From the NCBI GenBank assembly GCA_964017235.1, contig OZ024929.1, positions 29,695,464-29,759,463 of the forward strand: 64,000 bases of DNA, given 5' to 3'. The position numbers were made by a program, and so were the translations under genes. The stretch's first letter is position 1. The number at the start of each line of letters is the position of its first letter. Below the pieces are notes generated by a model. It was not told the DNA's origin. It saw only the letters and a list, made by a program, of their open reading frames with translations, and ran no database searches. The stretch is from Sabellastarte sp. h YS-2021. Lineage: Eukaryota > Annelida > Polychaeta > Sabellida > Sabellidae. Positions 19,140 through 64,000 of this stretch are shown one piece after another.

Positions 19140-19236
19140 GTCAGTCAGCTGACATATGGCATCACTCTGCAGTATGGGTGTCCGCGTGAACGACTTGTGG
19201 GAAACTTAACAAGGCCCAGAGACATGCTGTTTTTTT
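19140..19236 (+). mobile_element. HLE-3 5' end, interrupted by HLE-1
   Basis: GTCAGTCAGCTGACATATGG, then TCACTCTGCAGTATGGG, TGTCCGCGTGAACGACTT and CAAGGCCCAGAGACATGCTG match the HLE-3 start at 31401. The match ends in a T-run where HLE-1 is inserted at 19237. Confidence 0.65.
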
Positions 19237-19633
19237 ACCCCACAGCCCTTAAGGGCTGTCAGGGTATTGTTTTCACCCATGGTGTCCGGATAGGCGGTTG
19301 GGTGGGCGGCGGGAAAAAGTTTGTCCGGGCTGTATCTCAGAAAGTGTAAGGTGTAGGAAGTTGATACTTTGTAGGGACATTGGTTAGGAGGTGTAGGTGT
19401 GCAACGTCATGGTCTGACCTTGATTTAACCTTTGACCTTGCTGTAGTGACCTTGAGTTTGAAAATCTTGTCCGGGCTATATCTCGGAAACCGTAAGGTGT
19501 AGGAAGTTGATACTTGGTAGGGATATTGGTTAGGGGGTGTAGGTGCGCAACGTCATGGTCTGACCTTGATTTGACCTTTGATCTTGCATATCTGATGCTA
19601 TTTGATGCGTCTACGAGGATATCTGATACTATT

Positions 19634-22459
19634 TGTATCCACTGGAAGCATCCGGTGGATACTTTGGTTTAGCGTCTGCTACGCCGCGGCGGCGGCGCGT
19701 AGAGAGATTTTCGGCGTTAACGCTCTAGGAGGAAAACAACAGCACCTAGGTTCACCAAATTTGCAGGGTATCTTCATTGGGGGGTAAGCTTCTCTGGGAA
19801 GGAAAATAGCCTCATTCTGAAAAACAAGATGGCCGCCACGGGCATTTCTTTGAAAATAATCTACATTTTTCTACTGGCTGTTCCTCATAGGTAGAAGGTT
19901 GAATCTCTTCATAGGTGATATGTATGACACATATACATGTCCTCTACAACCTTGCACACATTTGACCTTGAAGCTCCTAATTCAAGGTCATCCACGGAGT
20001 GCCGAAGTAACCCACATAGCGGACTTTAAAAGTGCCTATATCTCCCTTATTATTGGTCCTAGAGGTTTGCAATGTGAAGCCAACCTATAGGAAATCATGT
20101 GCTGCGAATCTTCTGATGTGGTCAGATTTGACCTTGGACCCCTCCTTCAAGGTCAAACGAGGATAGCAGAACTTAAAAGTGCTTATAACTCACTTATTAT
20201 CGATCCTAGAGGTTTGGGATGGTAAACCAACATATAGGAAATCATGGGTTGGGAATCTTCTGGCGTGGTTGGATTTGACCTTGGGCCCCTCTTTCAAGGT
20301 CAAACGAGGACAGCCAAGCTTAAACGTGCTTATAACTCGCTTATTATTGGTCCTAGAGGTTTGGGATGGTAAACGAGCATATAGGAAATCATGGGCTGGG
20401 AATCTTCTGGTGTGGTCGGATTTGACCTTGGGCCCCTCCTTCAAGGTCAAACGAGGATAGCCAAAGATAAAAGTGCCTATAACTCTCTTATTATTGGTCC
20501 TAGAGGTTTGGGATGGTAAACCAACATATAGAAAATCATGGGCTGGGAATCTTCTGGTGAGGTCGGATTTGACCTTGGGCCCCTCATTCAAGGTCAAACG
20601 AGGACAGCCAAACTTAAAAGTGCTTATAACTCGCTTATTATTGGTCCTAGAGGTTTGGGATGGTAAACCAGCATATAGGAAATCATGGGCTGGGAATCTT
20701 CTGGTGTGGTCGGATTTGACCTTGGGCCCCTCCTTCAAGGTCAAACGAGGATAGCCAAAGGTAAAAGTGCCTATAACTCGCTTTTTATTGGTCCTAGAGG
20801 TTTGGGATGGTAAACCAACATATAGGAAATCATGGGCTGGGAATCTTCTGGCGTGGTCGGATTTGACCTTGGGCCCCTCCTTCAAGGTCAAATGAGGACA
20901 GCTAAACTTAAAAGTGCTTATAACTCCCTTATTATTGGTCCTAGATGTTTGGGATGGTAAACCAACATATAGGAAATCATGCACTTTGAATCTTCTGGTG
21001 AGGTCGGATTTGACCTTGGGCCCCTCCTTCAAGGTCAAACGAGGATAGCCAAACATAAAAGTGCTTATAACTCGCTTATTATTGGTCCTAGATGTTTGGG
21101 ATGGTAAACCAACATATAGGAAATCATGCACTGGGAATCTTCTGGTGTGGTCGGATTTGACCTTGGGCCCCTCATTCAAGGTCAAACGAGGATAGCCAAA
21201 GATAAAAGTGCCTATAATTCTCTTATTATTGGTCCTAGAGGTTTGGGATGGTAAACCAACATATAGAAAATCATGGGCTGGATTTGACCTTGGGCCCCTC
21301 CTTCAAGGTCAAACGAGGATAGCCAAACATAAAAGTGCTTATAACTCGCTTATTATTGGTCCTAGATGTTTGGGATGGTAAACCAACATATAGAAAATCA
21401 TGGGCTGGGAATCTTCTGGTGAGGTTGGATTTGACCTTGGGCCCCTCATTCAAGGTCAAACGAGGATAGCCAAAGATAAAAGTGCCTATAACTCTCTTAT
21501 TATTGGTCCTAGAGGTTTGGGATGGTAAACCAACATATAGAAAATCATGGGCTGGGAATCTTCTGGTTAGGTCGGATTTGACCTTGGGCCCCTCCTTCAA
21601 GGTCAAATGAGGACAGCCAAACTTAAAAGTGCTTATAACTCGCTTATTATTGGTCCTAGAGGTTTGGGATGGTAAACCAGCATATAGGAAATCATGGGCT
21701 GGGAATCTTCTGGTGTGGTCGGATTTAACCTTGGGCCCCTCCTTCAAGGTCAAATGAGGACAGCTAAACTTAAAAGTGCTTATAACTCCCTTATTATTGG
21801 TCCTAGAGGTTTGGGATGGTAAACCAACATATAGGAAATCATGCATTTGAATCTTCTGGTGTGGTCGGATTTGACCTTGGGTCCCTCCTTCAAGGTCAAA
21901 CGAGGATAGCGAAACATAAAAGTGCTTATAACTCTCTTATTATTGGTCCTAGATGTTTGGGATGGTAAACCAACATATAGGAAATCATGCACTGGGAATC
22001 TTCTGGTGTGGTCGGATTTGACCTTGGGCCCCTCCTTCAAGGTCAAACGAGGATAGCCAAAGGTTAAAGTGCCTATACCTCGCTTATTATTGGTCCTAGA
22101 GGTTTGGGATGGTAAACCAACCTATAGGAAATCATGGGCTGGGATTCTTTTGGTGTGGTCGGATTTGACCTTGGGCCCCTCCTTCAATATCAAATGAGGA
22201 CAGCCAAACTTAAAAGTGCTTATAACTCGCTTATTATTGATCCTAGTGGTTTGGGATAGTAAACCAACATATAGGAAATCATGTTCTGGGAATCTTCTGG
22301 TGTGGTCGGATTTGACCTTGGGCCCCTCCTTGAAGGTCAAATGAGGACAGCTAAACTTAAAAGTGCTTATAACTGACTTATTATTGGTCCTAGAGGTTTT
22401 GGTGCATTGTCTTTACGGTGGATACAATTTGCATCGGTTCTCCGATGCGCTAGGTCTAG
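19634..22459 (+). mobile_element. HLE-2 Helentron-like element, complete
   Basis: The start holds an 8-bp-stem hairpin, GTATCCAC (19635-19642) with GTGGATAC (19655-19662). Then come a CG-rich piece (GCCGCGGCGGCGGCGCG), CCAAATTTGCAGGGTATC, CAAGATGGCCGCCACGGG and the 147-bp array. The end carries GTGGATACA (22418-22426), complementary to the start, a perfect hairpin GCATCGG-TTCT-CCGATGC (22431-22448), and CTAG followed by T (22456-22459). A hairpin just upstream of CTRR is the known 3' end of rolling-circle Helitrons. No Rep or helicase gene is present. Confidence 0.75.
20020..22400. repeat. 147-bp tandem array, about 16 units
   Basis: Units repeat every 147 bp (for example GGATTTGACC at 20418, 20565 and 20712). 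Each contains TTATTATTGGTCCTAGAGG, ATAGGAAATCATGGGCTGGG and a perfect 10-bp inverted repeat TTTGACCTTG / CAAGGTCAAA around an 11-base GC-rich spacer. As 147 is divisible by three, a minus-strand frame stays open for 331 codons (20190-21185) with a 49-residue period. Confidence 0.9.
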
Positions 22460-28087: not shown

Positions 28088-29709
28088 ACCCCACAGCCCT
28101 TAATGGCTGTTGGGGTATTGTTTTCACCCATGGTGTCCGAATGGTCGGGCGGGCGGGCGTCCGGGCGGGCGGTCGTGTGGGCGGGCGGCAGGAAATAGTT
28201 TGTCTGGGCTGTATCTCAGAAACCGTAAGGTGTAGGAAGTTGATACTTGGTAGGGACATTGGTTAGGGGGTGTAGCTGTGCAACGTCATGGTCTGACCAT
28301 GATTTGACCTTTGACCTTGCTGTAGTGACCTTGAGTTTGAAAATCTTGTCCGGGCTATATATCGGAAACTGTAAGGTGTAGGAAGTTGAGACTTGGTAGG
28401 GACATTGGTTAGGGGGTGTAGTTGTGCAACGTCATGGTCTGACCTTGATTTGACCTTTGACCTTGCCGTAGTGACCTTGACCTATAAAATCTTGTCCGGG
28501 CAATATCTCGGAAACCGTAAGGTGTAGGAAGTTGATACTTGGTAGGGATATTGGTTAGGGGGTGTAGGTGTGCAACATCATGGTCTGACCTTGATTTGAC
28601 CTTTGACCTTGCCGTAGTGACCTTGACCTATAAAATGTTGTCCGGGCTATATCTCAGAAACCGTAAGGTGTAGGAAGTTGATACGTGGTACGGATATTGG
28701 TTAGGGGGTGTAGGTGTGCAACGTCATGGTGTGACCTTGATTTGACCTGTGACCTTGCCGTAGTGGCCTTGACCTATAAAATCTTGTCCAGGCTATATCT
28801 CAGAAACTGTAAGGTGTAGGAAGTTGATACTTGGTAGGGATATTGCTTAGGGGGTGTAGGTGTGCAGCGTCATGGTCTGACCTTGATTTGACCTTTGACC
28901 TTGCCGTAGTGACCTTGACCTATAAAATGTTGTCTGGGCTATATCTCAGAAACCGTAAGGTGTAGGAAGTTGATACTTGGTAGGGATATTGATTAGGTGG
29001 TGTAGGTGTGCAACATCATGGTCTGACCTTGATTTGACCTTTAACCTTGCTGTAGTGACCTTGACCTATAAAATATTGTCCGGGCTTTATCTCGGAAACT
29101 GTTAGGTGCAGGAAGTTGATATTTGGTAGAGACATTGGCTAGGGGGTGTAGGTGTGCAGCATCATGGTGTGACCTTAATTTGACCTTTTACCTTGCCGTA
29201 GTGACCTTGACCTTTAAAATCTTGTTGCACATTTGGGTCTGTCTTTTGATGCAGATTAAGCAAAAGTCATATTAGAATTTATTAAGAATTTTACTTTCAT
29301 AACTTCCCATTGTAAGAGATAGAATTTCATCAAGTGAGCCACAGATTTTACTCCAACACCACACATAAGCATTCATTAAATGTATTACCACTTCTGTATG
29401 CATGGTAATATTCAAACCATCTAAACCATAATTCGGAAATGCAGATGTATATAAAGAGTGTTGAATTTTAGTTTACTGATTAATGCTGTCATCTTGTCAT
29501 TGAATTATCTTGTTTTAATACTTCATCTTTATACGCATTGTCTTTCTTTTAAACATTATTTCTCCATTTAAACATTGTTTGGACCTTTATATAACTGACA
29601 GTGCTCTGAAAGTATCCTGAAGTTTGTACTGGTACAGTACTTCTATATCTCATGGTGTTAAAAATATTTCCCAAGGCTGTGGGGTACGGGCATCTCTGAT
29701 GCTATTTTT
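28088..29709 (+). mobile_element. HLE-1 complete copy nested in HLE-1
   Basis: It starts ACCCCACAGCCCTTAATGGC after a T-run, has the G-rich run GGGCGGGCGGGCGTCCGGGC (28146 onward), seven to eight 146-bp units (28200-29220), the conserved tail (CATTTGGGTCTGTCTTTTGA) and ends GGCTGTGGGGTA, the GCATC-TCT-GATGC hairpin and a T-run near 29709. This is the most complete HLE-1 in the window and can serve as family reference. Confidence 0.7.
28200..29220. repeat. 146-bp tandem array
   Basis: Units of about 146 bp: TATCTCGGAAACCGTAAGGT, GAAGTTGATACTTGGTAGGG, GTGTAGGTGTGCAACGTCAT, then TGACCTTGATTTGACC, TTTGACCTTGCCGTAG and TGACCTTGACCTATAAAATC. TGACCTTTGACCT (28451-28463 and equivalents) is a perfect direct repeat of the nuclear-receptor half-site with one base between, on the minus strand. 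Confidence 0.85.
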
Positions 29710-29935
29710 GGGGTACTGATAAATGCTGTCATTTTATTATTGAATTGTCTTGTTTTAATACTTCATCTTTACATACATTTCTTTTCCTTAGATATTATTT
29801 TCTCTACGTAAGCATTATTTTGACTTTAATATCACTGACACTGCTCTGAAGGTATCTTGAACTTTGTACTGTTACACTACTTCTGTATCTCATGGTGTTG
29901 AAAAATATTTCCTCAGGGTGTGGGGTACGGGCATC

Positions 29936-30294: not shown

Positions 30295-30316
30295 AAGCGT
30301 CCCTGAAAGGGCGCTT
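30295..30316 (+). mobile_element. HLE-5-type 5' hairpin
   Basis: AAGCGTCCC (30295-30303) pairs with GGGCGCTT (30309-30316) with one bulge, followed by CG-rich CTCACCGCCGCCGC and TATGGTCTCCC. The same kind of start occurs at 44860 and 47907. Its 3' end was not identified. Confidence 0.45.
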
Positions 30317-30477
30317 ATTTGTTTTCGCCTCAGTTTCCTCACCGCCGCCGCATTATGGTCTCCCTTGAATATCTCCCTTATTATTAGAAGGTTTCAAACC
30401 ATATTTGGCAGTTATATACCACAGGCGTGGGAAAATTTTTCTGCATGCTTAAATTTGATCTTTGACCTTTATGAAAG

Positions 30478-31240: not shown

Positions 31241-31829
31241 AGCATACAACGCAGCTTTGTGCATTCTTAGCTTTACAGCATGCTTATTAAAACCACAAAG
31301 CATTTTAAACTCTCAGGGATGCTTCGTTTTTGTTAGCAAAAGCATTCTTCTAGTTTAACATTTAGTTTATTGATTTGTGACTTAGCTTTGTCATTTTTAT
31401 GTCAGCTGACTTGTCAGTCAGCTGGCATTATGTCGTCACTCTGCGGCGTGGGCGTACGCGTACGCGTCCGCGTGAACAACTTCTCCTCCAAAACTACAAG
31501 GCCTAGAGACGTGCTGTTTTTTTTAAAAGATACCTTATCTATCGAGGATGAAAAATTGTTCAAGGCATGCAAATCTGTCTGTTCGTCTGTTTGCTAGAGA
31601 CATTACAAGGGGGGTACCCCCACCAAAAGTGTGAAAATTTCAACTTTTTATCACAATTTTCTCAGTGACTATTGCAGGGATTTCTCTCATATCTTGCATA
31701 TATGTACTAGGCCAGAGGTAGATTCTCTTGTGTGAGTATGAGACCTGGATCTCTCTTACTTTTTTTTTAATAAATTTTTTTAATAATTTTTAATGCATTA
31801 ACATTCATGAAATCATGCACAAAATCATT

Positions 31830-34800
31830 TATAACTTGAAAACTGTTGCATCTAGAGCATTTTGTTAAAATATGTTATTCAGCTACTTTTTTCATAGCTA
31901 CAATATGGTGAGTAAGTTGGGTGCCTGTCTCAATAGCTAAGTGAGTAATAGCTACTTTTGGGCTTTTCAGTAACTTCCATCATGAGTAGAATCACTTGTA
32001 ACTTAAAAACTATTGCATTTAGAGAATTTTGTATAAATATGTTATTCAGCTACTTTTGGGTCAGCTATAACATAGTAAAATTTTAGACCTGTAGCTCATG
32101 GCATAGCTGAGTAATAGCTACTTTTACGTTATCACTGTTGAGTAAATTGCTTATAACTTCAAAACTATTGCATTTAGAGAATTTCGTATAAATATGTTAT
32201 TCAGCTACTTTTGGGTCAGCTATAACATAGTAAAATTTCAGACCTGTAGCTCATGGCATAGCTGAGTAATAGCTACTTTTAGGTTATCACTGTTGAGTAA
32301 ATCGCTTATAACTTGGAAACTATTGCATTTAGAGTATTTTGTTTCAATATGTTATTCACCTATTTTGGGATCAGCTATAACATAGTGAAGTTTCAGATCT
32401 GTGGCTCATTGCATAGCTGAGTAATAGCTACTTTGAAGTTCTCACTATTGAGTAAATCAGTTGTAATTGGAAAACTATTGCATTTAGAGAATTTAGTATA
32501 AATATGTTATTCAGCTACTTTTGGGTCAGCTATAACATAGTAAAATTTCAGACCTGTAGCTCATGGCATAGCTGAGTAATAGCTACTTTTAGGTCATCAC
32601 TATTGAGTAAATCAGTTGTAACTTGAAAACTATTGCATTTACAGTATTTTGCTTTAATATGTTGTTCACCTACTTTTGGGTCAGCTATAACATAGTGAAA
32701 TTTCAGACCTGTAGCTCATTGCATAGCTGAGTAATAACTACTTTGAGGTTCTCACTATTGAGTAAATCAGTTGTAATTGGAAAATTATTGCATTTAGAGA
32801 ATTTAGTATAAATATGTTATTCAGCTACTTTTGGGTCAACTATAACATAGTAAAATTTCAGACCTGTAGCTCATGGCATAGCTGAGTAATAGCTACTTTG
32901 AGGTCATCACTATTGAGTAAATCAGTTGTAACTTGAAAACTATTGCATTTACAGTATTTTGCTTAAATATGTTGTTCACCTACTTTTGGGTCAGCTATAA
33001 CATAGTAAAATTTCAGACCTGTAGCTCATGGCATAGCTGAGTAATAGCTACTTTTAGGTCATCACTATTGAGTAAATCAGTTGTAACTTGAAAACTATTG
33101 CATTTACAGTATTTTGCTTAAATATGTTGTTCACCTACTTTTGGGTCAGCTATAACATAGTAAAATTTCAGACCTGTAGCTCATGGCATAGCTGAGTAAT
33201 AGCTACTTTTAGGTCATCACTATTGAGTAAATCAGTTGTAACTTGAAAACTATTGCATTTACAGTATTTTGCTTAAATATGTTGTTCACCTACTTTTGGG
33301 TCAGCTATAACATAGTAAAATTTCAGACCTGTAGCTCATGGCATAGCTGAGTAATAGCTACTTTTAGGTTATCACTGTTGAGTAAATCGCTTATAACTTG
33401 GAAATTATTGCATTTAGAGTATTTTGTTTCAATATGTTATTCACCTATTTTGGGGTCAGCTATAACATAGTGAAGTTCCAGACCCGTGACTCATTGCAAA
33501 GCTGAGTAATAGCTACTTTTAGGTTATCACTGTTGAGTAAATCGCTTATAACTTGGAAACTATTGCATTTAGAGTATTTTGTTTCAATATGTTATTCACC
33601 TATTTTGGGATCAGCTATAACATAGTGAAGTTTCAGATCTGTGGCTCATTGCATAGCTGAGTAATAGCTACTTTGAAGTTCTCACTATTGAGTAAATCAG
33701 TTGTAATTGGAAAACTATTGCATTTAGAGAATTTCGTATAAATATGTTATTCAGCTACTTTTGGGTCAGCTATAACATAGTGAAATTACAGACCTGTAGC
33801 TCATGGCATAGCTGAGTAATAGCTACTTTTAGGTCATCACTATTGAGTAAATCAGTTGTAACTTGAAAACTATTGCATTTACAGTATTTTGCTTAAATAT
33901 GTTGTTCACCTACTTTTGGGTCAGCTATAACATAGTAAAATTTCAGACCTGTAGCTCATGGCATAGCTGAGTAATAGCTACTTTTAGGTCATCACTATTG
34001 AGTAAATCAGTTGTAACTTGAAAACTATTGCATTTACAGTATTTTGCTTTAATATGTTGTTCACCTACTTTTGGGTCAGCTATAACATAGTGAAATTTCA
34101 GACCTGTAGCTCATTGCATAGCTGAGTAATAACTACTTTGAGGTTCTCACTATTGAGTAAATCAGTTGTAATTGGAAAACTATTGCATTTAGAGAATTTA
34201 GTATAAATATGTTATTCAGCTACTTTTGGGTCAACTATAACATAGTAAAATTTCAGACCTGTAGCTCATGGCATAGCTGAGTAATAGCTACTTTTAGGTC
34301 ATCACTATTGAGTAAATCAGTTGTAACTTGAAAACTATTGCATTTACAGTATTTTGCTTAAATATGTTGTTCACCTACTTTTGGGTCAGCTATAACATAG
34401 TAAAATTTCAGACCTGAGCTCATGGCATAGCTGAGTAATAGCTACTTTTAGGTTATCACTGTTGAGTAAATCGCTTATAACTTGGAAATTATTGCATTTA
34501 GAGTATTTTGTTTCAATATGTTATTCACCTATTTTGGGGTCAGCTATAACATAGTGAAGTTCCAGACCCGTGACTCATTGCATAGCTGAGTAATAGCTAC
34601 TTTGAAGTTCTCAATGTTGAGTAAATCACTTGTAATTTGAAAACTATTGCATTTAGAGAATTTAGTATAAATATGTTATTCAGCTACTTTTGGGTCAGCT
34701 ATAACATAGTAAAATTTCAGACCTGTAGCTCATGGCATAGCTGAGTAATAGCTACTTTTAGGTTATCACTGTTGAGTAAATCGCTTATAACTTGGAAACT

Positions 34801-37800
34801 ATTGCATTTAGAGTATTTTGTTTCAATATGTTATTCACCTATTTTGGGATCAGCTATAACATAGTGAAGTTTCAGATCTGTGGCTCATTGCATAGCTGAG
34901 TAATAGCTACTTTGAAGTTCTCACTATTGAGTAAATCAGTTGTAATTGGAAAACTATTGCATTTAGAGAATTTAGTATAAATATGTTATTCAGCTACTTT
35001 TGGGTCAGCTATAACATAGTAAAATTTCAGACCTGTAGCTCATGGCATAGCTGAGTAATAGCTACTTTTAGGTCATCACTATTGAGTAAATCAGTTGTAA
35101 CTTGAAAACTATTGCATTTACAGTATTTTGCTTTAATATGTTGTTCACCTACTTTTGGGTCAGCTATAACATAGTGAAATTTCAGACCTGTAGCTCATTG
35201 CATAGCTGAGTAATAACTACTTTGAGGTTCTCACTATTGAGTAAATCAGTTGTAATTGGAAAATTATTGCATTTAGAGAATTTAGTATAAATATGTTATT
35301 CAGCTACTTTTGGGTCAACTATAACATAGTAAAATTTCAGACCTGTAGCTCATGGCATAGCTGAGTAATAGCTACTTTGAGGTCATCACTATTGAGTAAA
35401 TCAGTTGTAACTTGAAAACTATTGCATTTACAGTATTTTGCTTAAATATGTTGTTCACCTACTTTTGGGTCAGCTATAACATAGTAAAATTTCAGACCTG
35501 TAGCTCATGGCATAGCTGAGTAATAGCTACTTTTAGGTCATCACTATTGAGTAAATCAGTTGTAACTTGAAAACTATTGCATTTACAGTATTTTGCTTAA
35601 ATATGTTGTTCACCTACTTTTGGGTCAGCTATAACATAGTAAAATTTCAGACCTGTAGCTCATGGCATAGCTGAGTAATAGCTACTTTTAGGTCATCACT
35701 ATTGAGTAAATCAGTTGTAACTTGAAAACTATTGCATTTACAGTATTTTGCTTAAATATGTTGTTCACCTACTTTTGGGTCAGCTATAACATAGTAAAAT
35801 TTCAGACCTGTAGCTCATGGCATAGCTGAGTAATAGCTACTTTTAGGTTATCACTGTTGAGTAAATCGCTTATAACTTGGAAATTATTGCATTTAGAGTA
35901 TTTTGTTTCAATATGTTATTCACCTATTTTGGGGTCAGCTATAACATAGTGAAGTTCCAGACCCGTGACTCATTGCAAAGCTGAGTAATAGCTACTTTTA
36001 GGTTATCACTGTTGAGTAAATCGCTTATAACTTGGAAACTATTGCATTTAGAGTATTTTGTTTCAATATGTTATTCACCTATTTTGGGATCAGCTATAAC
36101 ATAGTGAAGTTTCAGATCTGTGGCTCATTGCATAGCTGAGTAATAGCTACTTTGAAGTTCTCACTATTGAGTAAATCAGTTGTAATTGGAAAACTATTGC
36201 ATTTAGAGAATTTCGTATAAATATGTTATTCAGCTACTTTTGGGTCAGCTATAACATAGTGAAATTACAGACCTGTAGCTCATGGCATAGCTGAGTAATA
36301 GCTACTTTTAGGTCATCACTATTGAGTAAATCAGTTGTAACTTGAAAACTATTGCATTTACAGTATTTTGCTTAAATATGTTGTTCACCTACTTTTGGGT
36401 CAGCTATAACATAGTAAAATTTCAGACCTGTAGCTCATGGCATAGCTGAGTAATAGCTACTTTTAGGTCATCACTATTGAGTAAATCAGTTGTAACTTGA
36501 AAACTATTGCATTTACAGTATTTTGCTTTAATATGTTGTTCACCTACTTTTGGGTCAGCTATAACATAGTGAAATTTCAGACCTGTAGCTCATTGCATAG
36601 CTGAGTAATAACTACTTTGAGGTTCTCACTATTGAGTAAATCAGTTGTAATTGGAAAACTATTGCATTTAGAGAATTTAGTATAAATATGTTATTCAGCT
36701 ACTTTTGGGTCAACTATAACATAGTAAAATTTCAGACCTGTAGCTCATGGCATAGCTGAGTAATAGCTACTTTTAGGTCATCACTATTGAGTAAATCAGT
36801 TGTAACTTGAAAACTATTGCATTTACAGTATTTTGCTTAAATATGTTGTTCACCTACTTTTGGGTCAGCTATAACATAGTAAAATTTCAGACCTGAGCTC
36901 ATGGCATAGCTGAGTAATAGCTACTTTTAGGTTATCACTGTTGAGTAAATCGCTTATAACTTGGAAATTATTGCATTTAGAGTATTTTGTTTCAATATGT
37001 TATTCACCTATTTTGGGGTCAGCTATAACATAGTGAAGTTCCAGACCCGTGACTCATTGCATAGCTGAGTAATAGCTACTTTGAAGTTCTCAATGTTGAG
37101 TAAATCACTTGTAATTTGAAAACTATTGCATTTAGAGAATTTAGTATAAATATGTTATTCAGCTACTTTTGGGTCAGCTATAACATAGTAAAATTTCAGA
37201 CCTGTAGCTCATGGCATAGCTGAGTAATAGCTACTTTTAGGTTATCACTGTTGAGTAAATCACTTATAACTTGAAAACTATTGCATTTAGAGTATTTTGT
37301 TTCAATATGTTATTCACCTATTTTGGGGTCAGCTATAACATAGTGAAGTTCCAGACCTGTGGCTCATTGCATAGCTGAGTAATAGCTACTTTGAAGTTCT
37401 CACTGTTGAGTAAATCAGTTGTAATTGGAAAACTATTGCTTTTACAGAAATTTGTGCAAATATGTTATTCAGCTACTTTTGGGTCAGCTATAACATAGTG
37501 AAATTACAGACCTGTAGCTCATGGCACAACTGAGCAATAGCTGTTCTCAGGCACTGACTGTTGAGTAAATCAGCTATAACTTGAAAAATATTGCATTTGG
37601 AGTATTTTGTTAAAATATATTGTTCACCTACTTTTGGGTTAGCTATAACATAGTGAAATTACAGACCTATAGCTCATGGCATAGCGGAGCAATAGCTATT
37701 TTCTGGTTCTCACTATTGAGTAAATCGGTTGTAACTTGAAAACTATTGCATTTACAGTATTTTGCTTAAATATGTTGTTCAGCTACTTTTAGGTCAGCTA

Positions 37801-41420: not shown

Positions 41421-41429
41421 ATTAAAAGT

Positions 41430-47885: not shown

Positions 47886-47906
47886 AGGTATTAACTAAAT
47901 TTAATT

Positions 47907-47928
47907 AAGCGTCCCGCAAGGGACGTTT
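47907..47928 (+). mobile_element. HLE-5 5' hairpin
   Basis: AAGCGTCCC (47907-47915) pairs with GGGACGTTT (47920-47928) across a GCAA loop. CG-rich GGCTCCGCCGGCTCCGC follows, then CTTATAACTCTGTAACCG and TTTTCAAATTTGGCAGG. The 169-, 133- and 155-bp arrays lie downstream. The matching 3' end is uncertain; a CTAG at 59231-59234 after GGGCGTCC is a weak candidate. Confidence 0.5.
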
Positions 47929-48299
47929 GTTTGTGTATGGGAGAGCTTCAGGCTCCGCCGGCTCCGCATTTTGTTTTTCTTATAACTCTGTAACCGTTAG
48001 GCGGATTCTTTTCAAATTTGGCAGGTTTAGGCAGTAGCCTTGGGGAATTTTTTTGAATATGCTGCAGTGACATTTCAACCAATCATAGAGGTCACATGAC
48101 CAAAAATGTCTTTTTTCGATGGGGAAGCTTGTCCGGATGATAACTTGAAAGGAATTTTATCAATTCACCTGAAACTTGGCAAATACATTCATTCTATTAA
48201 AATCTGGAAATCATTAGATTTTGGCATTGATTGGTCAAGAAATGGCCGAGTAATTAATGATTAATTAATCATTACGAATTTTCCAAATAAGGAAAACAC
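47929..48299. other. HLE-5 subterminal DNA
   Basis: Contains the CG-rich stretch and one copy of the core phrase (TAACTCTGTAACCGTTAGGC, then CAAATTTGGCAGG), followed by AT-rich DNA leading to the array. No gene. Confidence 0.4.
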
Positions 48300-49060
48300 A
48301 AAAATGCTTATATCTCAAAAACCGTGCTAGATAGAGCGATTTCAATGAAATTTTTGACCCGCAGGGTATCTCTGCGGAGTAGTTTTCCCAATTTTCAAAC
48401 TATTTTTGTCTCGTCCAAAATGGCGGCCATTTTGAATTTTCGAAATTTTCGCAAAAATTGCAAAACACAAAAATGCTTATATCTCAAAAACCGTGCTAGA
48501 TAGAGCAATTTCGACAAAATTTTTGACCCGCAGGATATCTCTGCGGAGTACTTTTCCCAATTTTCAAAAAATTTTTGTCTCGCCATAAATGGCGGCCATT
48601 TTGAATTTTCGAATTTTTCGCAAAAATTGCAAAACATAAAAATGTTTATATCTCGAAAACCCTGCAAGATAGAGCGATTTCGACGAAATTTCTGACCCGT
48701 AAGTTATCTCTGCAGAGTAGCCATGCCAATTTTCAAACAAAAAATTTCTCGCAAAAAATGGCGGCCATTTTGAATTTTCGAATTTTTCGCAAAATTGCAA
48801 AACACAAAAATGCTTATATCTCGAAAACCGTGCTAGATAGAGCGATTTCGACGAAATTTTTGGCCCACAGGGTATCTCTGAAGAGTAGCCATGTCAATTT
48901 TCAAAAAAAATTTGTCTTGCCAAAAATGGCGGCCATTTTGAATTTTCGAATTTTTGCGCAAAACTTGCAAAACACAAAAATGCTAATATTTCGAAAACCG
49001 TGCTACATAGAGCGATTTCGACGAAATTTTTTATCTTCAGGGTATCTCTGCAGAGCAGCT
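48300..49060. repeat. 169-bp tandem array, about 4.5 units
   Basis: AAAATGCTTA recurs at 48301, 48470 and 48639. Units hold TATATCTCAAAAACCGTGC, TAGATAGAGCGATTTCGACG, AAATTTTTGACCCGCAGG and AATGGCGGCCATTTTGAAT. Confidence 0.9.
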
Positions 49061-49063
49061 ATC

Positions 49064-52000
49064 CCAAAGAGCTTTCACTTGGTGAAGTTTCAGACCCATA
49101 GCTAATTGCTCACCTACTCAAAAAGAGTAAATGCGAATTACCTCTAAAAGTATTGCAGATGGCCAATTTTTCTCAAATAACTCATTCACCTACTTTTGGA
49201 AGAGCTTTCACTTGGTGAAGTTTCAGACCCGTAGCTAATTACTCACCTACTCAAAATGAGTAAATGCTAATTATCTCAAAAACTATTGCAGATACCCAAT
49301 TTTTATCAAATAACTCATTCATGTACTTTTGGGAGAGCTTTCACATGGTGAAGTTTCAGACCCGTAGATGATTACTCACCTACTCAAAATGAGTAAATGC
49401 GAATTATCTCTTAAAAGTATTGCAGATAGCCAATTTTTCTCAAATAACTCATTCACCTACTTTTGGAAGAGCTTTCACATGGTGAAGTTTCAGACCCATA
49501 GTTAATTACTCACCTACTCAAAATGAGTAAATGCGAATTATCTCTAAAAGTATTGCAGATAGCCAATTTTTCTCAAATAACTCATTCACCTACTTTTGGG
49601 AGAGCTTTCACTCTGTGAAGTTTCAGACCCATAGCTAATTATTTACCTACTCAAAATGAGTAAATGCTAATTATCTCTAAAAGTATTGCATATAGCCAAT
49701 TTTTCTCAAATAACTCATTCACCTACTTTTGGGAGAGCTTTTACTCTGTGAAGTTTCAGACCCATAGCTAATTACTCACCTACTGAAAATGAGTAAATGT
49801 GAATTATCTCTAAAAGTATTGCAGATAGCCAATTTTTCTCAAATAACTCATTCACCTACTTTTGGGAGAGCTTTCACTTGGTGAAGTTTCAGACCCATAG
49901 CTAATTACTCACCTACTCAAAATGAGTAAATGCGAATTATCTCTAAAAGTATTGCATATAGCCAATTTTTCTCAAATAACTCATTCACCTACTTTTGGGA
50001 GAGCTTTTACTCTGTGAAGTTTCAGACCCATAGCTAATTACTCACCTACTCAAAATGAGTAAATGCGAATTATCTCTAAAAGTATTGCAGATAGCCAATT
50101 TTTCTCAAATAACTCATTCACCTACTTTTGGGAGAGCTTTCACTCGGTGAAGTTTCAGACCCATAGCTAATTACTCACCTACTCAAAATGAGTAAATGCG
50201 AATTATCTCTAAAAGTATTGCAGATAGCCAATTTTTCTCAAATAACTCATTCACCTACTTTTGGGAGAGCTTTCACTTGGTGAAGTTTCAGACCCATAGC
50301 TAATTACTCACCTACTGAAAATGAGTAAATGTGAATTATCTCCAAAAGTATTGCAGATAGCCAATTTTTCTCAAATAACTCATTCACCTACTTTTGGGAG
50401 AGCTTTCACTCGGTGAAGTTTCAGACCCATAGCTAATTACTCACCTACTCAAAATGAGTAAATGCGAATTATCTCTAAAAGTATTGCAGATAGCCAATTT
50501 TTCTCAAATTAATCATTCACCTACTTTTGGGAGAGCTTTCACTTGGTGAAGTTTCAGACCCATAGCTAATTACTCACCTACTCAAAATGAGTAAATGCGA
50601 ATTATCTCTAAAAGTATTGCAGATAGCCTATTTTTCTCAACTCATTCACCTTCTTTTGGGAGAGCTTTCACTTGGTGAAGTTTCAGACCCATAGCTAATT
50701 ACTCACCTACTCAAAATGAGTAAATGCGAATTATCTCTAAAAGTATTGCAGATAGCCAATTTTTCTCAAATTAATCATTCACCTACTTTTGGGAGAGCTT
50801 TCACTTGGTGAAGTTTCAGACCCATAGCTAATTACTCACCTACTCAAAATGAGTAAATGCGAATTATCTCTAAAAGTATTGCAGATAGCCAATTTTTCTC
50901 AAATAACTCATTCACCTACTTTTGGGAGAGCTTTCACTCTGTGAAGTTTCAGACCCATAGCTAATTACTTACCTACTCAAAATGAGTAAATGCGAATTAT
51001 CTCTAAAAGTATTGCAGATAGCCAATTTTTCTCAAATAACTCATTCACCTACTTTTGGGAGAGCTTTCACTTGGTGAAGTTTCAGACCCATAGATAATTA
51101 CCTACCTACTCAAAATGAGTAAATGCGAATTATCTCTAAAAGTATTGCAGATAGCCAATTTTTCTCAAATAACTCATTCACCTACTTTTGGGAGAGCTTT
51201 CACTTGGTGAAGTTTCAGACCCATAGCTAATTACTCACCTACTGAAAATGAGTAAATGTGAATTATCTCCAAAAGTATTGCAGATAGCCAATTTTTCTCA
51301 AATAACTCATTCACCTACTTTTGGGAGAGCTTTCACTCGGTGAAGTTTCAGACCCATAGCTAATTACTCACCTACTCAAAATGAGTAAATGCGAATTATC
51401 TCTAAAAGTATTGCAGATAGCCAATTTTTCTCAAATTAATCATTCACCTACTTTTGGGAGAGCTTTCACTTGGTGAAGTTTCAGACCCATAGCTAATTAC
51501 TCACCTACTCAAAATGAGTAAATGCGAATTATCTCTAAAAGTATTGCAGATAGCCTATTTTTCTCAACTCATTCACCTTCTTTTGGGAGAGCTTTCACTT
51601 GGTGAAGTTTCAGACCCATAGCTAATTACTCACCTACTCAAAATGAGTAAATGCGAATTATCTCTAAAAGTATTGCAGATAGCCAATTTTTCTCAAATTA
51701 ATCATTCACCTACTTTTGGGAGAGCTTTCACTTGGTGAAGTTTCAGACCCATAGCTAATTACTCACCTACTCAAAATGAGTAAATGCGAATTATCTCTAA
51801 AAGTATTGCAGATAGCCAATTTTTCTCAAATAACTCATTCACCTACTTTTGGGAGAGCTTTCACTCTGTGAAGTTTCAGACCCATAGCTAATTACTCACC
51901 TACTCAAAATGAGTAAATGCGAATTATCTCTAAAAGTATTGCAGATAGCCAATTTTTGTCAAATTAATCATTCACCTACTTTTGGGAGAGCTTTCACTTG

Positions 52001-53560
52001 GTGAAGTTTCAGACCCATAGCTAATTACTCACCTACTCAAAATGAGTAAATGCGAATTATCTCTAAAAGTATTGCAGATAGCCAATTTTTCTCAAATAAC
52101 TCATTCACCTACTTTTAAAAGAGCTTTCACTTCGTGAAGTTTCAGACCCGTAGCTAATTATTCACCTGCTGAAAATGAGTAAATGCTAATTATCTCTAAA
52201 AGTATTGCAGGTAGCCAATTTTTCTCAAATAACTCCTTCAGGTACTTTTGAAAGAGCTTTCACATGGTGAAGTTTCAGATCCGTAGCTAATTACTCACCT
52301 ACTCAAAATGAGTAAATGCTAATTATCTCTAAAATTATTGCAGATAGACAACTTTTCTCAAATAACTCGTTCATCTACTTTTGGAAGAGCTTTCACATGG
52401 TCAAGTTTCAGATCCGTAGCTAATTACTCACCTACTCAAAATGAGTAAATACGAATTATCTCTAAAAGTATTGCAGGTAGCCAATTTTCTCAGATAACTC
52501 AATCACCTACTTTTGGGAGAGCTTTCACATGGTGAAATTTCAGACCCATAGCTAATTACTCACCTACTCAAAATGAGTAAATGCTAATTATCTCTAAAAG
52601 TATTGCAGATAGCCAATTTTTCTCAAATAACTCATTCACCTACTATTGGGAGAGCTTTCACTTGGTGAAGTTTCAGACCCGTAGCTAATTGTTTACCTAC
52701 TCAAAATGAGTAAATGCTAATTATCTCTAAAAGTATTGCAGATAGCCAATTTTTCTCATATAACTCATTCACCTACTTTTGGGAGAGCTTTCACTTGGTG
52801 AAGTTTCAGACCTGTAGCTAATTACTCACCTACTCAAAATGAGTAAATGCTAATTATCTCTAAAAGGATTGCAGATAGCCATTTTCTGTCAAATAACTCA
52901 TTCACCTACTTTTAGGAGAGCTTTCACTTGGTGAAGTTTCAGACCCATAGCTAATTACTCACCTGCTCAAAATGAGTAAATGCTAATTATCTCTAAAAGT
53001 ATTGCAGATAGCCAATTTTTCTCAAATAACTCATTCACCTACTTTTGGGAGAGCTTTCACATGGTGAAGTTTCAGCCCCATAGCTAATTACTCACCTGCT
53101 CAAAATGAGTAAATGCTAATTATCTCTAAAAGTATTGCAGATATCCAATTTTTCTCAAATAACTCATTCATCTACTATTGGGAGAGCTTTCACTTGGTGA
53201 AGTTTCAGACCCGTAGCTAATTATTCACCTACTCAAAATGAGTAAATGCTAATTATCCCTAGAAGTATTGCGGATAGCCTTCACATGGTGAAGTTCCAGA
53301 CCTGTAGGTAATTACTCACCTACTCAAAATGAGTAAATGCTAATTATCTCTAAAAGTATTGCGGATAGCCAATTTTTCTCAAATAAGTCATTCACCTACT
53401 TTTGGGACAGCTTTCACTTGGTGAAGTTTCAGACCTGTAGCTAGTTACTCACCTACTCAAAATAAGTAAATGCCTATTATCACTAAAAGTATTGCAGATA
53501 GCCAGTATTTCTCAAATAACTCATTCACCTACATTTTGGAGAAGTTTCACATGCTTAAGT
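49064..53560. repeat. 133-bp tandem array, about 33 units
   Basis: Starts of GAGCTTT at 50134, 50267 and 50400 give the 133-bp period. The middle is almost uniform (CCCATAGCTAATTACTCACC, AAATGAGTAAATGCGAATTA) while edges diverge. A seven-unit block is repeated with an offset of 927 bp: the 4-bp-deleted unit with AGATAGCCTA at 50621 and 51548, and CTCCAAAAG at 50339 and 51266. The duplicated span is about 50270-51880. Confidence 0.95.
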
Positions 53561-53589
53561 TTTTTTATGAATTTTTAAAATAAATTTTA

Positions 53590-54664: not shown

Positions 54665-54697
54665 GGCGGGAGATAAATGCATGCGTCAGAATGCTTG
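54665..54697 (+). mobile_element. HLE-7 3' end
   Basis: GGCGGGAGATAAATGCATGC, a short hairpin GCATGCGTCAGAATGC and CTTG followed by a T-run. It matches the inverse of the sequence at about 14900-14930. Confidence 0.55.
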
Positions 54698-56694: not shown

Positions 56695-57217
56695 TGACAT
56701 ACGTCTTTAGATCTTGATATCGGCAACCCAGTCCCAAAGCAATAAATATCAGCAATATCGATAAAAAATGTACCCACTACTCGCAGGGTATACGTAGTGT
56801 TATCTGGCACTTTTTACTGAAAAATGTTTGCCTGTCATTTTTGGTGGCCTTGAATTCCGTAAAATGCAAAGCACAGTCATCTGGCACTTTTTTTTTTTTT
56901 TTGAAAAAACAAAACAAAATAGTTTCCTGTCTTTTTTTTCTGGTATGTTGAATTTTTGTATAAATGGAAAAACAAACAGACCATTAGATACTCATTGAGA
57001 CGCACAGCAAAAATAATTTCTTCTTCTCTTCTGAAGCATTACTCTAGTTTAAATCTACACTTGACATACATGTACATTAATGTGGCCTTCACATTTTTCC
57101 GTTTGGGTGCGTAAGTAGAACAGCATTAAGAAACCTGGTGTCTTTGTATATTTTTCTCTAAATGTAGTGCAGCTTTGTAAATGTATAGTATATGTAGGGT
57201 CTTTGCGATTATTATCA
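56695..57217. other. Decayed 169-bp-type units, then unassigned DNA
   Basis: CGCAGGGTATACGTAGTG, ATCTGGCACTTTTTACTG and TTTTTGGTGGCCTTGAATTC at 56780-56890 are remnants of the repeat. The rest is AT-rich with a T-run at 56889. Confidence 0.4.
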
Positions 57218-58260
57218 CCGGGGGGTGGATATATTATTTTTGCTTTTTCCGGCGTCCGGCGTCACACATCGTTTCCGTTCATTTTAAGGAAAAGTATTAG
57301 AGCTATCTTCACCAAATTTGGTGTGCAGGATTATTGGGTCAGTGTCTTGCTTGGGATTGCTTTCAGCTGTTGTAGCTCTTTGGCTTACTGAGTAATACCT
57401 AAGTATAGCTATTTTCAGTACCTATTGGTTTCCGTGCATTTAAGGGAAAATGATTCAAGATATTTTACTAAAATTAGGAATACAAGATTATTATGTCTAT
57501 ATGTCACTTGGTATTGCATTTGGGACTGATAGCTCGTTAAGTTAGTGAGTAATAGCCATTTAGGTACTTTATTGTCTATTTTCAATACTACTTTTGAGTA
57601 ATTTGCTTATATCTCAGAAACCGTAACAGAAAGAGCGATTTTGAGCAAATTTTCGACCCAAAGGGTAATAGAAGATTATTCTGGTAAAAAGGAAAAATAA
57701 AAATTTTCGGAACTTTAGCTGTGAAGCTAACTGAGTTATAGCTAATTAGCTATTTTTAGTACCTCTTTGGTTTCCATGCATTTAAAGGAAAATCATTCAA
57801 GATATTCTAACCTAATTTGGTATGGAACATTATTGGGTTAATAGTTTGCTTAGTATTGCTTTTCTGAGTCATTGCTGTATAGCTAAGTGAGTAATAGCCA
57901 TTTAGCTACTTAATTAGCAGTTTTGAGTGAGTAGCTTTTTTATTTTAAGCATTTTAAAGGAAAAGTATTTCACCTATGTAGACAAAATATGGGATGGAGG
58001 ATTATTGGATCAGTAGCTTGCTTGGGGATTGCTTTTGGTGATAATACCTTTATAGCTAACTGAGTAATATCTATTGTGCTATATAGCTGTTATGCTATTT
58101 TGAGTTGACTTTTTTTCTTGACATTTTAATGAAACAATGTTTTCTATCTTCACAAAAATTTATTTGCTTTTGGTGAAGATAGGTCTATAGCTAACTGAGT
58201 AATAGCTACTTAGCTACTTTTGTGTACTTCTTTTGTTCCGGGCATTTTAAGGAAAAATAT
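57218..58260. repeat. Degenerate array with a tentative element start (HLE-8)
   Basis: ATCACCGGGGGGTGGATATA followed by CCGGCGTCCGGCGTC looks like another hairpin plus CG-rich start. Five units of roughly 190-210 bp follow with AGGAAAAGTATTAGAGC, ACCAAATTTGGTGTGCAGGA, TTATTGGGTCAGT, TGTAGCTCTTTGGC and CTGAGTAATA. The phrases parallel those of the 155-bp unit. Confidence 0.55.
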
Positions 58261-58286
58261 TTGACATATCTTTACCAAATTTAGTA

Positions 58287-59010
58287 TGAGCATTGTGAGA
58301 TAGAGCGATTTCGTCGAAATTTTTGACCCACAGTGTATCTGAGAAATGTACTCTTGGCAATTTTTAAAAAATTTTCCCCTCCCCAAAAATGGCGGCCATT
58401 TTGAATTTTCGAATTTTTGCCAAAAATGGCAAAACACAAATTTGCTTCTATCTCCTTAACCGTGCGAGACAGAGCAATTTCGTTGAAATTTTCGACCCAC
58501 AGGGTATCTGAGAAATGTACTCTTGGTAATTTTCAAAAAATTTTCCCCTCCCCAAAAATGGCGGCCATTTTGAATTTTCGAATTTTTGCCAAAAATGGCA
58601 AAACACAAATTTGCTTCTATCTCCTTAACCGTGCGAGATAGAGCGATTTCGTCGAAATTTTCGACCCACAGGGTATCTGAGAAATGTACTCTTGGCAATT
58701 TTCAAAAAATTTTCCCCTCCCCAAACATGGCGGCCATTTTGAATTTTCGAATTTTTGCCAAAAATGGCAAAACACAAATTTGCTTCTATCTCCTTAACCG
58801 TGTGAGATAGAGCGATTTCGTCAAAATTTTCGACCCACAGGGTATCTGAGCTATGTACTCTCGGCAATTTTCAAAAAAATTTCCTCTTCCCCAAAATGGC
58901 GGCCATTTTGAATTTTCGAATTTTTGCCGAAAAAAGGAAAAACAGAAATTTGCTTCTATCTCCTTAACCGTGCAAGATAGAGCGATTTCGTCAAAATTTT
59001 CGACCCAACC
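58287..59010. repeat. 169-bp tandem array, second locus, about 4 units
   Basis: GAGATAGAGCG recurs at 58297, 58466 and 58635, exactly 169 bp apart. Each unit has AAAATGGCGGCCATTTTGAA and CTATCTCCTTAACCGTGCG. Units are more alike within this locus than to the 48300 locus, so each array has been homogenised on its own. Confidence 0.9.
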
Positions 59011-61737: not shown

Positions 61738-62600
61738 TATCTCCCGCCGGCCGATAGGCCCGGTATGGGAGATTATAAAATGCTAGAGCTGAAAGGGATA
61801 TTCGCATTATTCGTTCTCCGGTCTGTATTTTCCGGATTCGACTTTCATAAGCAAACAAATATTTGGTATGGATATGGAAATTAGGCTTGGTATATGTAAA
61901 TATTGCAAATAACACTCACTTTTTCTAATGTTTTACTAAATAATAGAGCAAAAAGTGAACTTACTTGTTTTTCTTCCTGTTGTTGACTGAAAACTTAAAT
62001 GTCCGAGATTTTACCTAAATTTTGGAATGCACTAAAACTATAAAACGAATTTCCGGAAAATATCGGAAAATACGTAACGAATATTCAACCACAATTTTGA
62101 TCTCCTCTTTCAGCTCTATAAAATGCCCTCTGTCTGTGCGTCCATTCATCACGTTTTAACAAAAGCCTTTCTATCTCTTTAAATATTATAGCTAGAGCTT
62201 CCAAATTTGCAGGATAAATTCATCATTGGAAAAACTTGTCTGGGAATCTTTTTCGGCTGATTCGGAAAAACAAGATGGCCGCCACGGGTGTTAACAAGAT
62301 GGCTGCCATGGTTTTTTTTCAGATGTTCTGCCATGGGTTTTTTTTCGTTGATTTAGATGGCTGCCATAAGTATGTAGTTGCACTTTTATATAGCCTAAAA
62401 ATAGCCTGCTTGGTATTGATTTTGGGCCTATTTTGAAAAACAACATGGCCGCCAGAGCCTTGCCAAATCTCTGCAAATAGCAGAATGTAAGGCCTAAAGG
62501 TCTGTCTAAAGAAATGTGTTGCAGGTATCCTCACCAGTTTCTCCTTGGCCTTTTCAATGTTTTATGACCTTATTGCTTATGTCTTTTCATTTGGTGCTGT
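61738..62600 (+). mobile_element. HLE-7 5' part, split by a hAT MITE
   Basis: TCTCCCGCCGGCCGATAGGC with CCGGTATGGGAGA forms the 5' hairpin, followed by TTATAAAATGC. After the MITE the text continues CCTCTGTCTGTGCGTCC, CTTTCTATCTCTTTAAATAT, GAGCTTCCAAATTTGCAGG and ACAAGATGGCCGCCACGGG. The last two phrases are shared with HLE-2, so the interior is mixed. Confidence 0.6.
61784..62118. mobile_element. hAT-type MITE, TAGAGCTGAAAG ends, 8-bp TSD
   Basis: TAGAGCTGAAAG at the left and CTTTCAGCTCTA at the right are perfect inverted copies. TAAAATGC flanks both sides (61776-61783 and 62119-62126). It is 335 bp long. CGAATATTC-type words and TTTCCGGA/TCCGGAAA occur in both halves. Confidence 0.9.
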
Positions 62601-64000
62601 TTTTTCAGACCTAGGTCCATAGCTAAGTGAGTAATAGCAATGGTGGCTACTTTCAGTAAAGTGCTCATAACTCCAAAACGACTGCATTTAGAGCATTTCT
62701 GTAAAATATGTTGTTCAGCTACTTTCTCCATGCCTACAAGATGGTACCAATTTTAGGGGTCTATCTTGATAGCTAAGTGAGTAATAGCTAATTTCTGTTT
62801 TTAACAATGACCAAAATGAGTAAGTTGCTTTTATCTTTGTAACTGTTACTTACAGTATTGGTCTCAAATATGTTGTTAAACAACTCCTTCATGTACTATA
62901 TCATGGTGAGATTTCCAAGATGTAGCACCATAGCTAGCTGAGTAATAGCTACACTAAGTTTAACATTTGACCATTCAGCAAGTCACTTATAACTCAAAAA
63001 CTATTGAATATAGAGGATTTTTGTCAAATATGTTGTTTATCTACTTTTTGATGTACTGTGTCGTGGTGAATTTTCAGAGCTGTAAGTCCATAGCTAACTG
63101 AGTAATAGCTACTTTGAAATTTCTTAATTTCAACATTGAATAAATCACTTAACTGTCTTATACCTCCAAAACTATTGAATTTAGGGAATTATTGTCAAAT
63201 ATGTTAATCAGTTACTTTTTAATGCTCTGTGTTGTGGAAAAGTTTCAGAGCTGTATTTCCATAGCTAACTGAGTAATGGCTACTTTGAATTTCAACAATG
63301 AGCAAATCACTTATAACTCCAAAACTATTAAATTTAGAGAATTATTGTCAAATATGTTAATCAGTTACTTTTTAATGCTCTGTGTTGTGGAAAAGTTTCA
63401 GAGCTGTATTTCCATAGCTAACTGAGTAATGGCTACTTTGAATTTCAACAATGAGTAAATCACTTATAACTCCAAAACTATTAAATTTAGAGAATTATTG
63501 TCAAATATGTTGTTCACTTACTATTTGATGTACTGTGTCATGGGAAATTTTCATGGCAGTATCTCCATAGCTACCTGAGTAATAGCTACTTTGAGGGTTT
63601 CCATTGAGTAAATCACCTTTAACAGCAAAACTGTTGAATTTAGAGGATTTTTGTCAAATATGTTCTTCACCTACTTTTTGATGTACTGTGAAATGGCAAA
63701 TTTTGAGAGCTGTAGGTCCATAGCTAACCGAGTAATAGCTTCTTTCATGGTTCTCCATTGAGTAAATCACTTATAACAGCAAAACTGTTGAATTGAAAGG
63801 ATTTTTCTCAGATATGTTGTTTAGCTACTTTTTATGTACTGTGTAATGGCAAATTTTGAGACCTGTAGGTCCATAGCTAACTGAGTAATAGCTACTTTGA
63901 TTTTTGTGGAAAATGAAAAAGTCTTAATATCTCGAAAACTGTAAGAGATAGAGCGATTTTGAGTGAATTTTTGACCCACAGGGTAGTACATGAGTATACT
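62600..64000. repeat. Diverged array related to the 155-bp unit, runs off the window
   Basis: About eight units of 140-165 bp: TATAACTCCAAAACTATT, AATTTAGAGAATTATTGTCA, AATATGTTGTTCACTTACT, CATAGCTAACTGAGTAATAG and GAGTAAATCAC. One pair is almost identical (63207-63340 and 63363-63500). The last unit changes to TATCTCGAAAACTGTAAGAG, GATAGAGCGATTTTGAG and ACCCACAGGGTAGT, the phrase of the 169-bp family. Confidence 0.8.

Follow-up and report, generated by a model that had tools for sequence, protein, structure and literature searches.

Non-autonomous Helentron-type rolling-circle elements (HINEs) have a published anatomy consisting of a 5' subterminal inverted repeat (subTIR) with an inverted copy, a repeat, a 3' subTIR and a palindrome (PMC4067079, PMC7492417). 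DINE-1/HINE elements and Helentrons show a TT preference and have OTU-bearing autonomous partners (PMC4067079). We analyzed a 64,000-nucleotide stretch from the annelid Sabellastarte sp. h YS-2021 (the window, C3:29695464-29759463 in a 1.79-Gb genome), whose elements are HINEs. As in the Cg_HINE elements of the oyster Crassostrea gigas (Vojvoda Zeljko et al. 2020, PMC7492417), a 5' subTIR and inverted repeat, a microsatellite, and a 3' subTIR with palindrome accompany central tandem repeats, which in the oyster are mostly 140-180 bp long and of fixed orientation. We found that families otherwise unlike have in common a directional core of ~50 bp, TTATAWCTC..AAAC..TTCAAATTTGGCAGG, at the start of their ~150-base units, with a similarity that exceeds shuffled and reverse-strand controls. 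The core is real, yet some families fail the tests for it.

We number the end types E1-E5 and E7, separately from the HLE numbers of an earlier note made from the letters of the window (the sequence-only reading), and name array families by unit length in bp (F133, F146, F147, F153, F155, F157, F158 and F169b). Tandem Repeats Finder (TRF) found arrays with units of 133 to 303 bp in the window. When 15 array consensuses and 1 single region were aligned locally, all against all, two clear superfamilies emerged, one joining 169-bp with 150-bp units and the other 155-, 153-, 133- and 139-bp units, beside several weaker links. Upon inspection of 16 weaker alignments, most of the better same-strand matches covered the stretch TTATAWCTC...AAAC..T...TAGAG, and some fell elsewhere, for example on a ATGGCGGCCAT palindrome common to the 303-bp and 169-bp units. 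Separately, a palindrome like AAAATGGCGGCCATTTTG stands ~105-115 bp past the core start in several unit families (169-bp arrays at 48293-49067 and 58297-59007; 303-bp array at 15852-16757).

Using leave-one-group-out core profiles with 500 dinucleotide shuffles for each of 16 segments, we obtained p<=0.004 in 10 of them (F146, F153, F133, four of the 169-bp group, 48014, E5 and E7). We then cut 23 units into core, middle and end, and counted, among 243 between-group pairs, those with p<0.01. The core accounted for 41 (9 when the reverse strand was used), the middle part for 9 (3) and the end part for 14 (7). Because 12 of the 23 units had been chosen by eye or via the core, more weight falls on a TRF-only subset of 11 array families (46 between-group pairs, phase set by eye), in which the core gave 8 such pairs, the middle 1 and the end 3, with none on the reverse strand in any part. 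In seven of seven related family pairs the first 60 bp of the unit are better conserved than the remainder, by 0.03-0.20 (unweighted bin means of non-independent pairs, with no significance test).

Scans pointed the same way. In the window together with 36 loci (232 kb in all), a six-core profile at >=7 bits gave 144 matches, copies of the trained families included, whereas shuffled sequence gave 1.7 and reversed sequence 1; it also matched untrained families (303-bp, 157-bp and 169-bp units, L009:1853 and L044:944). In 36 unselected loci of 3 kb each (108 kb), at >=9 bits, this profile gave 16 matches against 0 reversed and 0 shuffled. Seven profiles together gave 119 matches in 15 of these loci against 0 reversed and 0.2 shuffled, a result that speaks to specificity and abundance more than to sharing, since most are copies of the window families from which the profiles were built. 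Genome-wide, AAATTTGGCAGG has 10,089 copies against 53 for the reversed word, and TATCTCGAAAAC has 56,430 against 518. These counts likewise indicate abundance and not sharing, because nearly all AAATTTGGCAGG loci read are E3 (its leader or a close variant lies beside 57 of 60), and the AAATTTGGCAGG count was therefore dropped as support for sharing.

The elements and arrays of the window are as follows.

19235..19320, + strand: E1 5' end, ACCCCACAGCCCTTAAGGGCTGT hairpin (subTIR and inverted copy), leader and GC-rich repeat; 6,257 exact genome matches.
27070 and 28086, + strand: further E1 5' ends.
19321..19587, + strand: 146-bp array F146, core TATATCTCAGAAACCGT...GATACTTGGTAGGG; more arrays at 27152-29225 and 45034-46121.
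29672..29710, + strand: E1 3' end, inverted subTIR GGCTGTGGGGT and palindrome GGGCATCTCTGATGCT; also at 1689, 23194 and 46461.
19635..19662, + strand: E4 5' hairpin GTATCCAC..GTGGATAC, then a CCGCGGCGGCGGCGCG repeat and a core unit near 19715-19800.
20026..22399, + strand: 147-bp array F147, core TTATAACTCGCTTATTATTGGTCCTAGAGG; E4-type 3' end with palindrome at 22418.
30295..30416, + strand: element with hairpin AAGCGTCCCTGAAAGGGCGCTT, CCGCCGCCG repeat and core at 30367-30416.
31822..38041, + strand: 155-bp array F155, core TTGTAACTTGAAAACTATTGCATTTAGAG; then an F147 array at 38043-39005.
41020..41107, + strand: E2 5' hairpin TATCCCCGACGCGAAGCGGGGATA and CGTCCG repeat; 2,190 exact genome matches.
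41112..43714, + strand: arrays F157 (41112-41419), F155 (41607-42553) and F133 (42703-43714) in a row, core spacings 157, 161, 167 and 155 bp over the first junctions; an E4-like stretch at 42551 leaves element boundaries unsettled.
47907..47968, + strand: E3 5' end, hairpin AAGCGTCCCGCAAGGGACGTTT, leader and GGCTCCGCC repeat; 6,433 exact genome matches.
47980..48190, + strand: single core units at 47980 and 48138, 158 bp apart and unlike beyond the core; next core at 48308, +170 bp.
48293..53562, + strand: 169-bp array (48293-49067), in phase (152 bp) into 133-bp arrays (49068-53562).
57214..57330, + strand: E5 imperfect 5' hairpin, CCGGCGTCCGGCGTC repeat, and core unit with CACCAAATTTGGTGTGCAGG at 57310.
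58297..59007, + strand: 169-bp array of a second subfamily, F169b.
62169..64000, + strand: core unit 62169-62219 (TCCAAATTTGCAGG at 62200), 153-bp array 63157-63904, and a 169-type core at 63925, +154 bp.
15105..16790, - strand: core units including a 303-bp array, outside the interval of the sequence-only reading; the array resembles a doublet of ~150-bp core units, spaced 143 and 160.

The sequence-only reading had described end types with unrelated sequences that share one layout and one core, and this observation is partly confirmed. Its eight quoted core phrases all lie on the + strand, 0-16 bp from where it had placed them, and none on the - strand. The order of 5' hairpin, CG-rich repeat and core unit recurs at 19235, 27070 and 28086 (E1), 41020 (E2), 47907 (E3), 19635 (E4), 30295 and 57214 (E5), the hairpin being a 5' subTIR with a nearby inverted copy that is imperfect in E5; at 62117 (E7) no 5' hairpin was seen by eye. 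The CG-rich microsatellite lies between the 5' end and the central repeats at 28146, 41065, 47951 and others. An inverted 3' subTIR with palindrome was found for E3 in four loci (L011, L012, L020 and L028) and for E1 and E4 in the window, and was not found for E2 or E5 within the window. E3 copies with an intact hairpin mostly start TTAAGC after varied flanks. As to the three-phrase pattern claimed for the units, a core common to many families stood, but E2, E4 and E5 are without its TATMTC part and the spacing varies by 6-8 bp between classes. Nor are the ends wholly unrelated, as an AAGCRTCCC hairpin arm is common to E3, the 30295 element, a further element N2 (in L024) and the coding element L116 described below.

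Units of different families also tend to stand in phase. In the window, neighboring cores of unlike units are spaced 158, 170, 152, 161, 164, 167, 160 and 154 bp, and some about double (321 and 335 bp), perhaps where an intervening unit is too decayed to score. Where neighboring units differ beyond the core and their cores lie 40-400 bp apart, the spacing is 140-180 bp in 21 of 38 cases in the window and in 97 of 148 across all loci, a good many of the latter being E3 copies; we estimate that a uniform spread would place ~11% there. Off-phase spacings were 42 (two profiles, one unit), 63, 118, 134, 239 (across an element boundary), 262 and 274 bp. The in-phase position is therefore a tendency, and it favors one ancestral tandem repeat behind the units. 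Downstream of the E3 5' end at 47907, the next recognised 3' end (54242) is of E4 type, a possible chimera.

A coding relative connects these elements to Helentrons. Helitron_like_N has 24 matches in the genome; we read the 5' flanks of five, of which two are near-identical copies of one family, and one of the loci read as follows.

L116, from base 1741 (C3:189219640 on): coding Helentron-type element with open reading frames (ORFs) for OTU, DUF6570 and Helitron_like_N.

This element starts with a hairpin AAGCATCCC..GGGTGCTT, a CCGTTGCCGTTG repeat and a leader, and its hairpin arm is much like that of E3. Its 5' end aligns to the 30295 element with a local score of 88 (best of 500 shuffles 36), to N2 with 58 (43) and to E3 with 39 (36), the 30295 element being the best match among the three. 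The 5' match together with the coding content ties the HINEs to a Helentron-type element, and L116 may, judged by sequence, be a candidate for their autonomous partner. Two F146 units in the same locus are part of an E1 copy whose end precedes the start of the coding element (~1741).

We propose that the HINE interiors descend from one ancestral tandem repeat of ~150-170 bp, each unit starting with the directional core of ~50 bp. The outer ends would have been exchanged over time, and the units would have diverged until little beyond the core was recognisable, with occasional re-amplification of one unit producing a homogeneous array; units of different families would still tend toward phase within an element. 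Rolling-circle replicons use iterons beside the nick hairpin. In a comparable way, the core might persist because it is recognized in double-stranded form, either by a protein belonging to the mobilising machinery that the families share or by a replication protein of the host. We consider this account, recognition by a protein included, to be somewhat probable. The sequence-only reading had offered an old common element that kept its core, or a core that does something for transposition, and this interpretation is partly supported, in that common descent of the units, which we infer, is supported by the core-centered directional similarity, the phase tendency at junctions, and a coding copy that matches the 5' end of a window element. 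A role of the core in transposition is unproven: conservation is somewhat higher in the core than elsewhere in the unit, yet the coding copy has no detectable core.

Several observations weigh against the proposal. In the leave-one-group-out test, F158 was borderline (p=0.052), five of the 16 segments were not significant (F147, F155, 48140, F157/E2 and E4), and N2 failed as well. Weak similarity exists outside the core too (middle 9 and end 14 of the 243 pairs), and 12 of the 23 units were selected by eye or via the core, a bias that the TRF-only subset removes, though with a phase set by eye. By manual count in the window, only 7 of 16 neighbors of different profiles <400 bp apart are spaced 140-180 bp, and many of the 21 in-phase cases above are decayed edge units of a single array. 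The core profile finds nothing in the L116 coding element (p=1.0), which argues against the core being needed by every copy, and the 4.5-5.2-kb flanks of four other Helitron_like_N loci, whose 5' ends were not located, held no core of their own.

The L116 result accords with descent without function, in which the core would be the last recognisable part of an old repeat with no role in movement; the absence of structure in the core, given below, also speaks for this explanation. However, had the units decayed evenly, a single directional stretch would not have stayed alike with the rest near control levels, and the first 60 bp are somewhat better kept in all seven pairs, albeit by small differences, so that we judge it possible but rather doubtful. 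Alternatively, arrays or units may pass between HINE families by recombination or filler capture, spreading the core sideways. The arrays are indeed modular: F169 and then F133 stand behind E3, F157, F155 and F133 stand in a row behind E2 (boundaries unsettled), so that F133 occurs in both settings, the order F155 then F147 recurs in L045, L047 and the window, and the E3 5' end has an E4-type 3' end as its next one (54242). Exchange of this kind has been suggested in the oyster HINEs (PMC7492417). If whole units were transferred, however, the rest of the unit would come along, whereas unlike units share little but the core; shuffling accounts for array sharing and not for core-only sharing, and we judge it, too, possible but rather doubtful.

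A structured RNA or ribozyme can be set aside with more assurance. Folding is slightly better than in shuffles for whole units (mean z -0.62), but not for the 23 cores (mean z 0.10; complements -0.05), for which alifold predicted no pair and no consensus structure emerged, and Rfam had no match in the window at gathering score. The conserved secondary structure that the sequence-only reading had suggested looking for thus did not appear, and we regard this explanation as very improbable. Chance likeness of AT-rich repeats, for which the short and AT-rich phrases might speak, is the least credible of all, since dinucleotide shuffles, reversed sequence and the opposite strand yield far fewer matches, and the spaced core phrase matched only twice in a prokaryote collection (L030 and L031) and once in viral contigs (L029, which looks like chance). 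The stricter phrase had no match in either collection, where we saw no sign of relatives of the core; the search also returned one sequence common to five near-identical contigs (L048-L052). Retention of a core amid turnover of ends and units would indicate that Helentron movement has a requirement in cis beyond the terminal sequences, and would offer one handle on families now filed as unrelated.

We found the orientation of HINEs to be regionally coherent in one 31-Mb stretch of C1, in the window at 19-64 kb and at a few further loci. All 24 TATMTCNNAAAC matches in the window lie on one strand. Genome-wide, the strands are balanced. Because phrase copies form one-strand runs along C1, we listed the 5' ends of three families there, namely the first 100 places each for E3, E2 and E1 (a 31-Mb stretch, C1:0.7-31.2 Mb). 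E3 places were merged with AAATTTGGCAGG places to 133 elements (40 of the 97 AAATTTGGCAGG places were not read), and 27 of the 100 E2 places fall within the E3 span. Counting each element once per distance class, listed cross-family pairs 3-25 kb apart had the same orientation in 32 of 34 cases (p 3.5e-8); for pairs 25-50 kb apart the count was 28 of 40, and for those 50-100 kb apart it was 39 of 56. Also among listed copies, E2 had the orientation of the nearest E3, where one lay within 100 kb, in 21 of 23 cases (p 0.004 by circular shifts), E1 agreed with E3 in 63 of 83 (p 0.0002), and E2 with E1 in 12 of 16; agreement falls to about one half past 100-200 kb. The differing spacings between cross-family pairs argue against block duplication. 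E3 alone formed 48 strand runs where 67.5 were expected (p 0.0005), but p rises to 0.13 once the analysis is confined to copies >50 kb apart. As a control, we took a short interspersed nuclear element (SINE) derived from a transfer RNA (tRNA), its nature judged by eye, by means of a second pattern with 12,919 exact matches, the first having had 2 copies. SINE pairs at 3-25 kb shared a strand in 8 of 15 cases (runs p 0.35), and SINEs agreed with the nearest HINE in 18 of 32, with agreement in single distance bins wandering from 0.33 to 0.64; HINEs of that span agreed in 52 of 53 pairs at 3-25 kb.

Nesting explains only part of this agreement. Judged with the window library, the 5' flank (<=300 bases) lies within other HINE units in at least 8 of 49 E3 copies, 8 of 8 on the same strand, and the other 41 copies still agreed with listed HINE ends in 34 of 34 pairs at 5-25 kb, 28 of 33 at 25-50 kb and 34 of 50 at 50-100 kb (non-independent pairs). 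In C1 9.6-11.4 Mb, picked since all 11 E3 copies there are +, 9 of 20 fresh loci had cores, all 9 on +; one of the five listed E1 places at C1 9.60-11.48 Mb is -. Further exceptions are L044 (mixed), the window at 15.1-16.8 kb (-), L017 (two opposite units) and L015 (F147 array opposite E3).

The strength of the agreement, its extension across families and the SINE control favor strand-selective insertion. More tentatively, the direction of insertion might be set by the region, such that families with unrelated ends and one core form domains of tens of kb to >1 Mb. A single-stranded intermediate would join one template strand, and fork direction or transcription would set that strand; replication-fork polarity and transcription polarity are both candidates. 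Earlier HINEs may also seed clusters, adding at short range, and one-strand PIWI-interacting RNA (piRNA) loci are a further possibility. Selection within introns would need great strength and indifference to SINEs. The comparison with gene strands was uninformative, as a zinc-finger pattern had no match on C1 and ORFs in L093-L112 gave too few genes. If the regional explanation holds, old HINE insertions would preserve, like a fossil map, the polarity of forks or of transcription. Should the domains prove general, they would inform the question of which sites, and which strand, animal rolling-circle transposons choose for insertion.

The terminal hairpin of E3 itself turns. Among the first 100 of 6,433 places, this 22-bp hairpin (window 47907-47928) occurs in both orientations, 84:16, with the rest of the element fixed, and its variant loop occurs both ways as well (ACAA 7, TTGT 2). 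On an 18-copy tree the inverted hairpin needs five changes, of which two are forced by well-supported branches. E2 had no inverted hairpin in 100 listed copies, ruling out inversion as a general rule; turning occurs in one family, perhaps during replication. A literature search on hairpin inversion found nothing.

Some further features stand beside these subjects. F146 and F147 units are rich in TGACCTTGA and TCAAGGTCA (35 and 21 on the window + strand, at 19963-22400, 27246-29210 and 45128-46120), words that we take to resemble nuclear-receptor half-sites. A tRNA-like SINE head was seen by eye within a core-bearing element at 30476-30585, where ARAGORN found no tRNA. An ORF at 59765-60325 (+, the strand of the surrounding HINEs) matches Glyco_transf_8 with E 1.2e-5. 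Long ORFs in L093-L096 and L105 resemble, by eye, tyrosine-recombinase (DIRS-like) retroelements.

In full-text literature searches, core phrase strings returned unrelated papers only. We found neither the phase nor a core shared across families called unrelated in the available portions of PMC7492417, PMC4067079 and PMC11136912, and the search likewise found no report of regional HINE orientation, the accessible text of PMC5371812 and PMC4067079 included. The closest likeness is to Cg_HINE, where, as here, some of the 11 elements have unlike ends or two successive arrays, and two conserved segments are common to the otherwise dissimilar monomer clusters CL1/2/10/13 and CL4 (PMC7492417). As that paper reports the layout, the unlike ends, the two-array elements and the shared segments, the layout was already known and core sharing partly foreshadowed; the likeness is one of published descriptions. 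Cg_HINE group 3 is called divergent in all modules (PMC7492417), whereas here the core is common across such families and tends to keep its phase across array junctions. The ~160-bp repeats of Pearl elements and of the bivalve satellites Cg170/HindIII and BIV160, several within mobile elements (PMC7492417, PMC5139131), are similar by description only. DINE-1 and Helentrons (Thomas, Vadnagara and Pritham 2014, PMC4067079) have subTIRs, palindromes and a microsatellite as here, and DINE-1, again by description only, has a "core" stretch conserved across 12 Drosophila genomes. That core, however, is specific to DINE-1 and said to be absent from mite HINEs, and, unlike here, the parts of the paper at hand describe neither a core across families with different subTIRs nor a regional orientation. 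For orientation, the nearest parallel lies in the IS200/IS605 single-strand transposons, whose orientation follows a property of the target region, the lagging-strand template (review PMC5371812); these are bacterial and use a different enzyme, and our elements are likened to them by orientation pattern.

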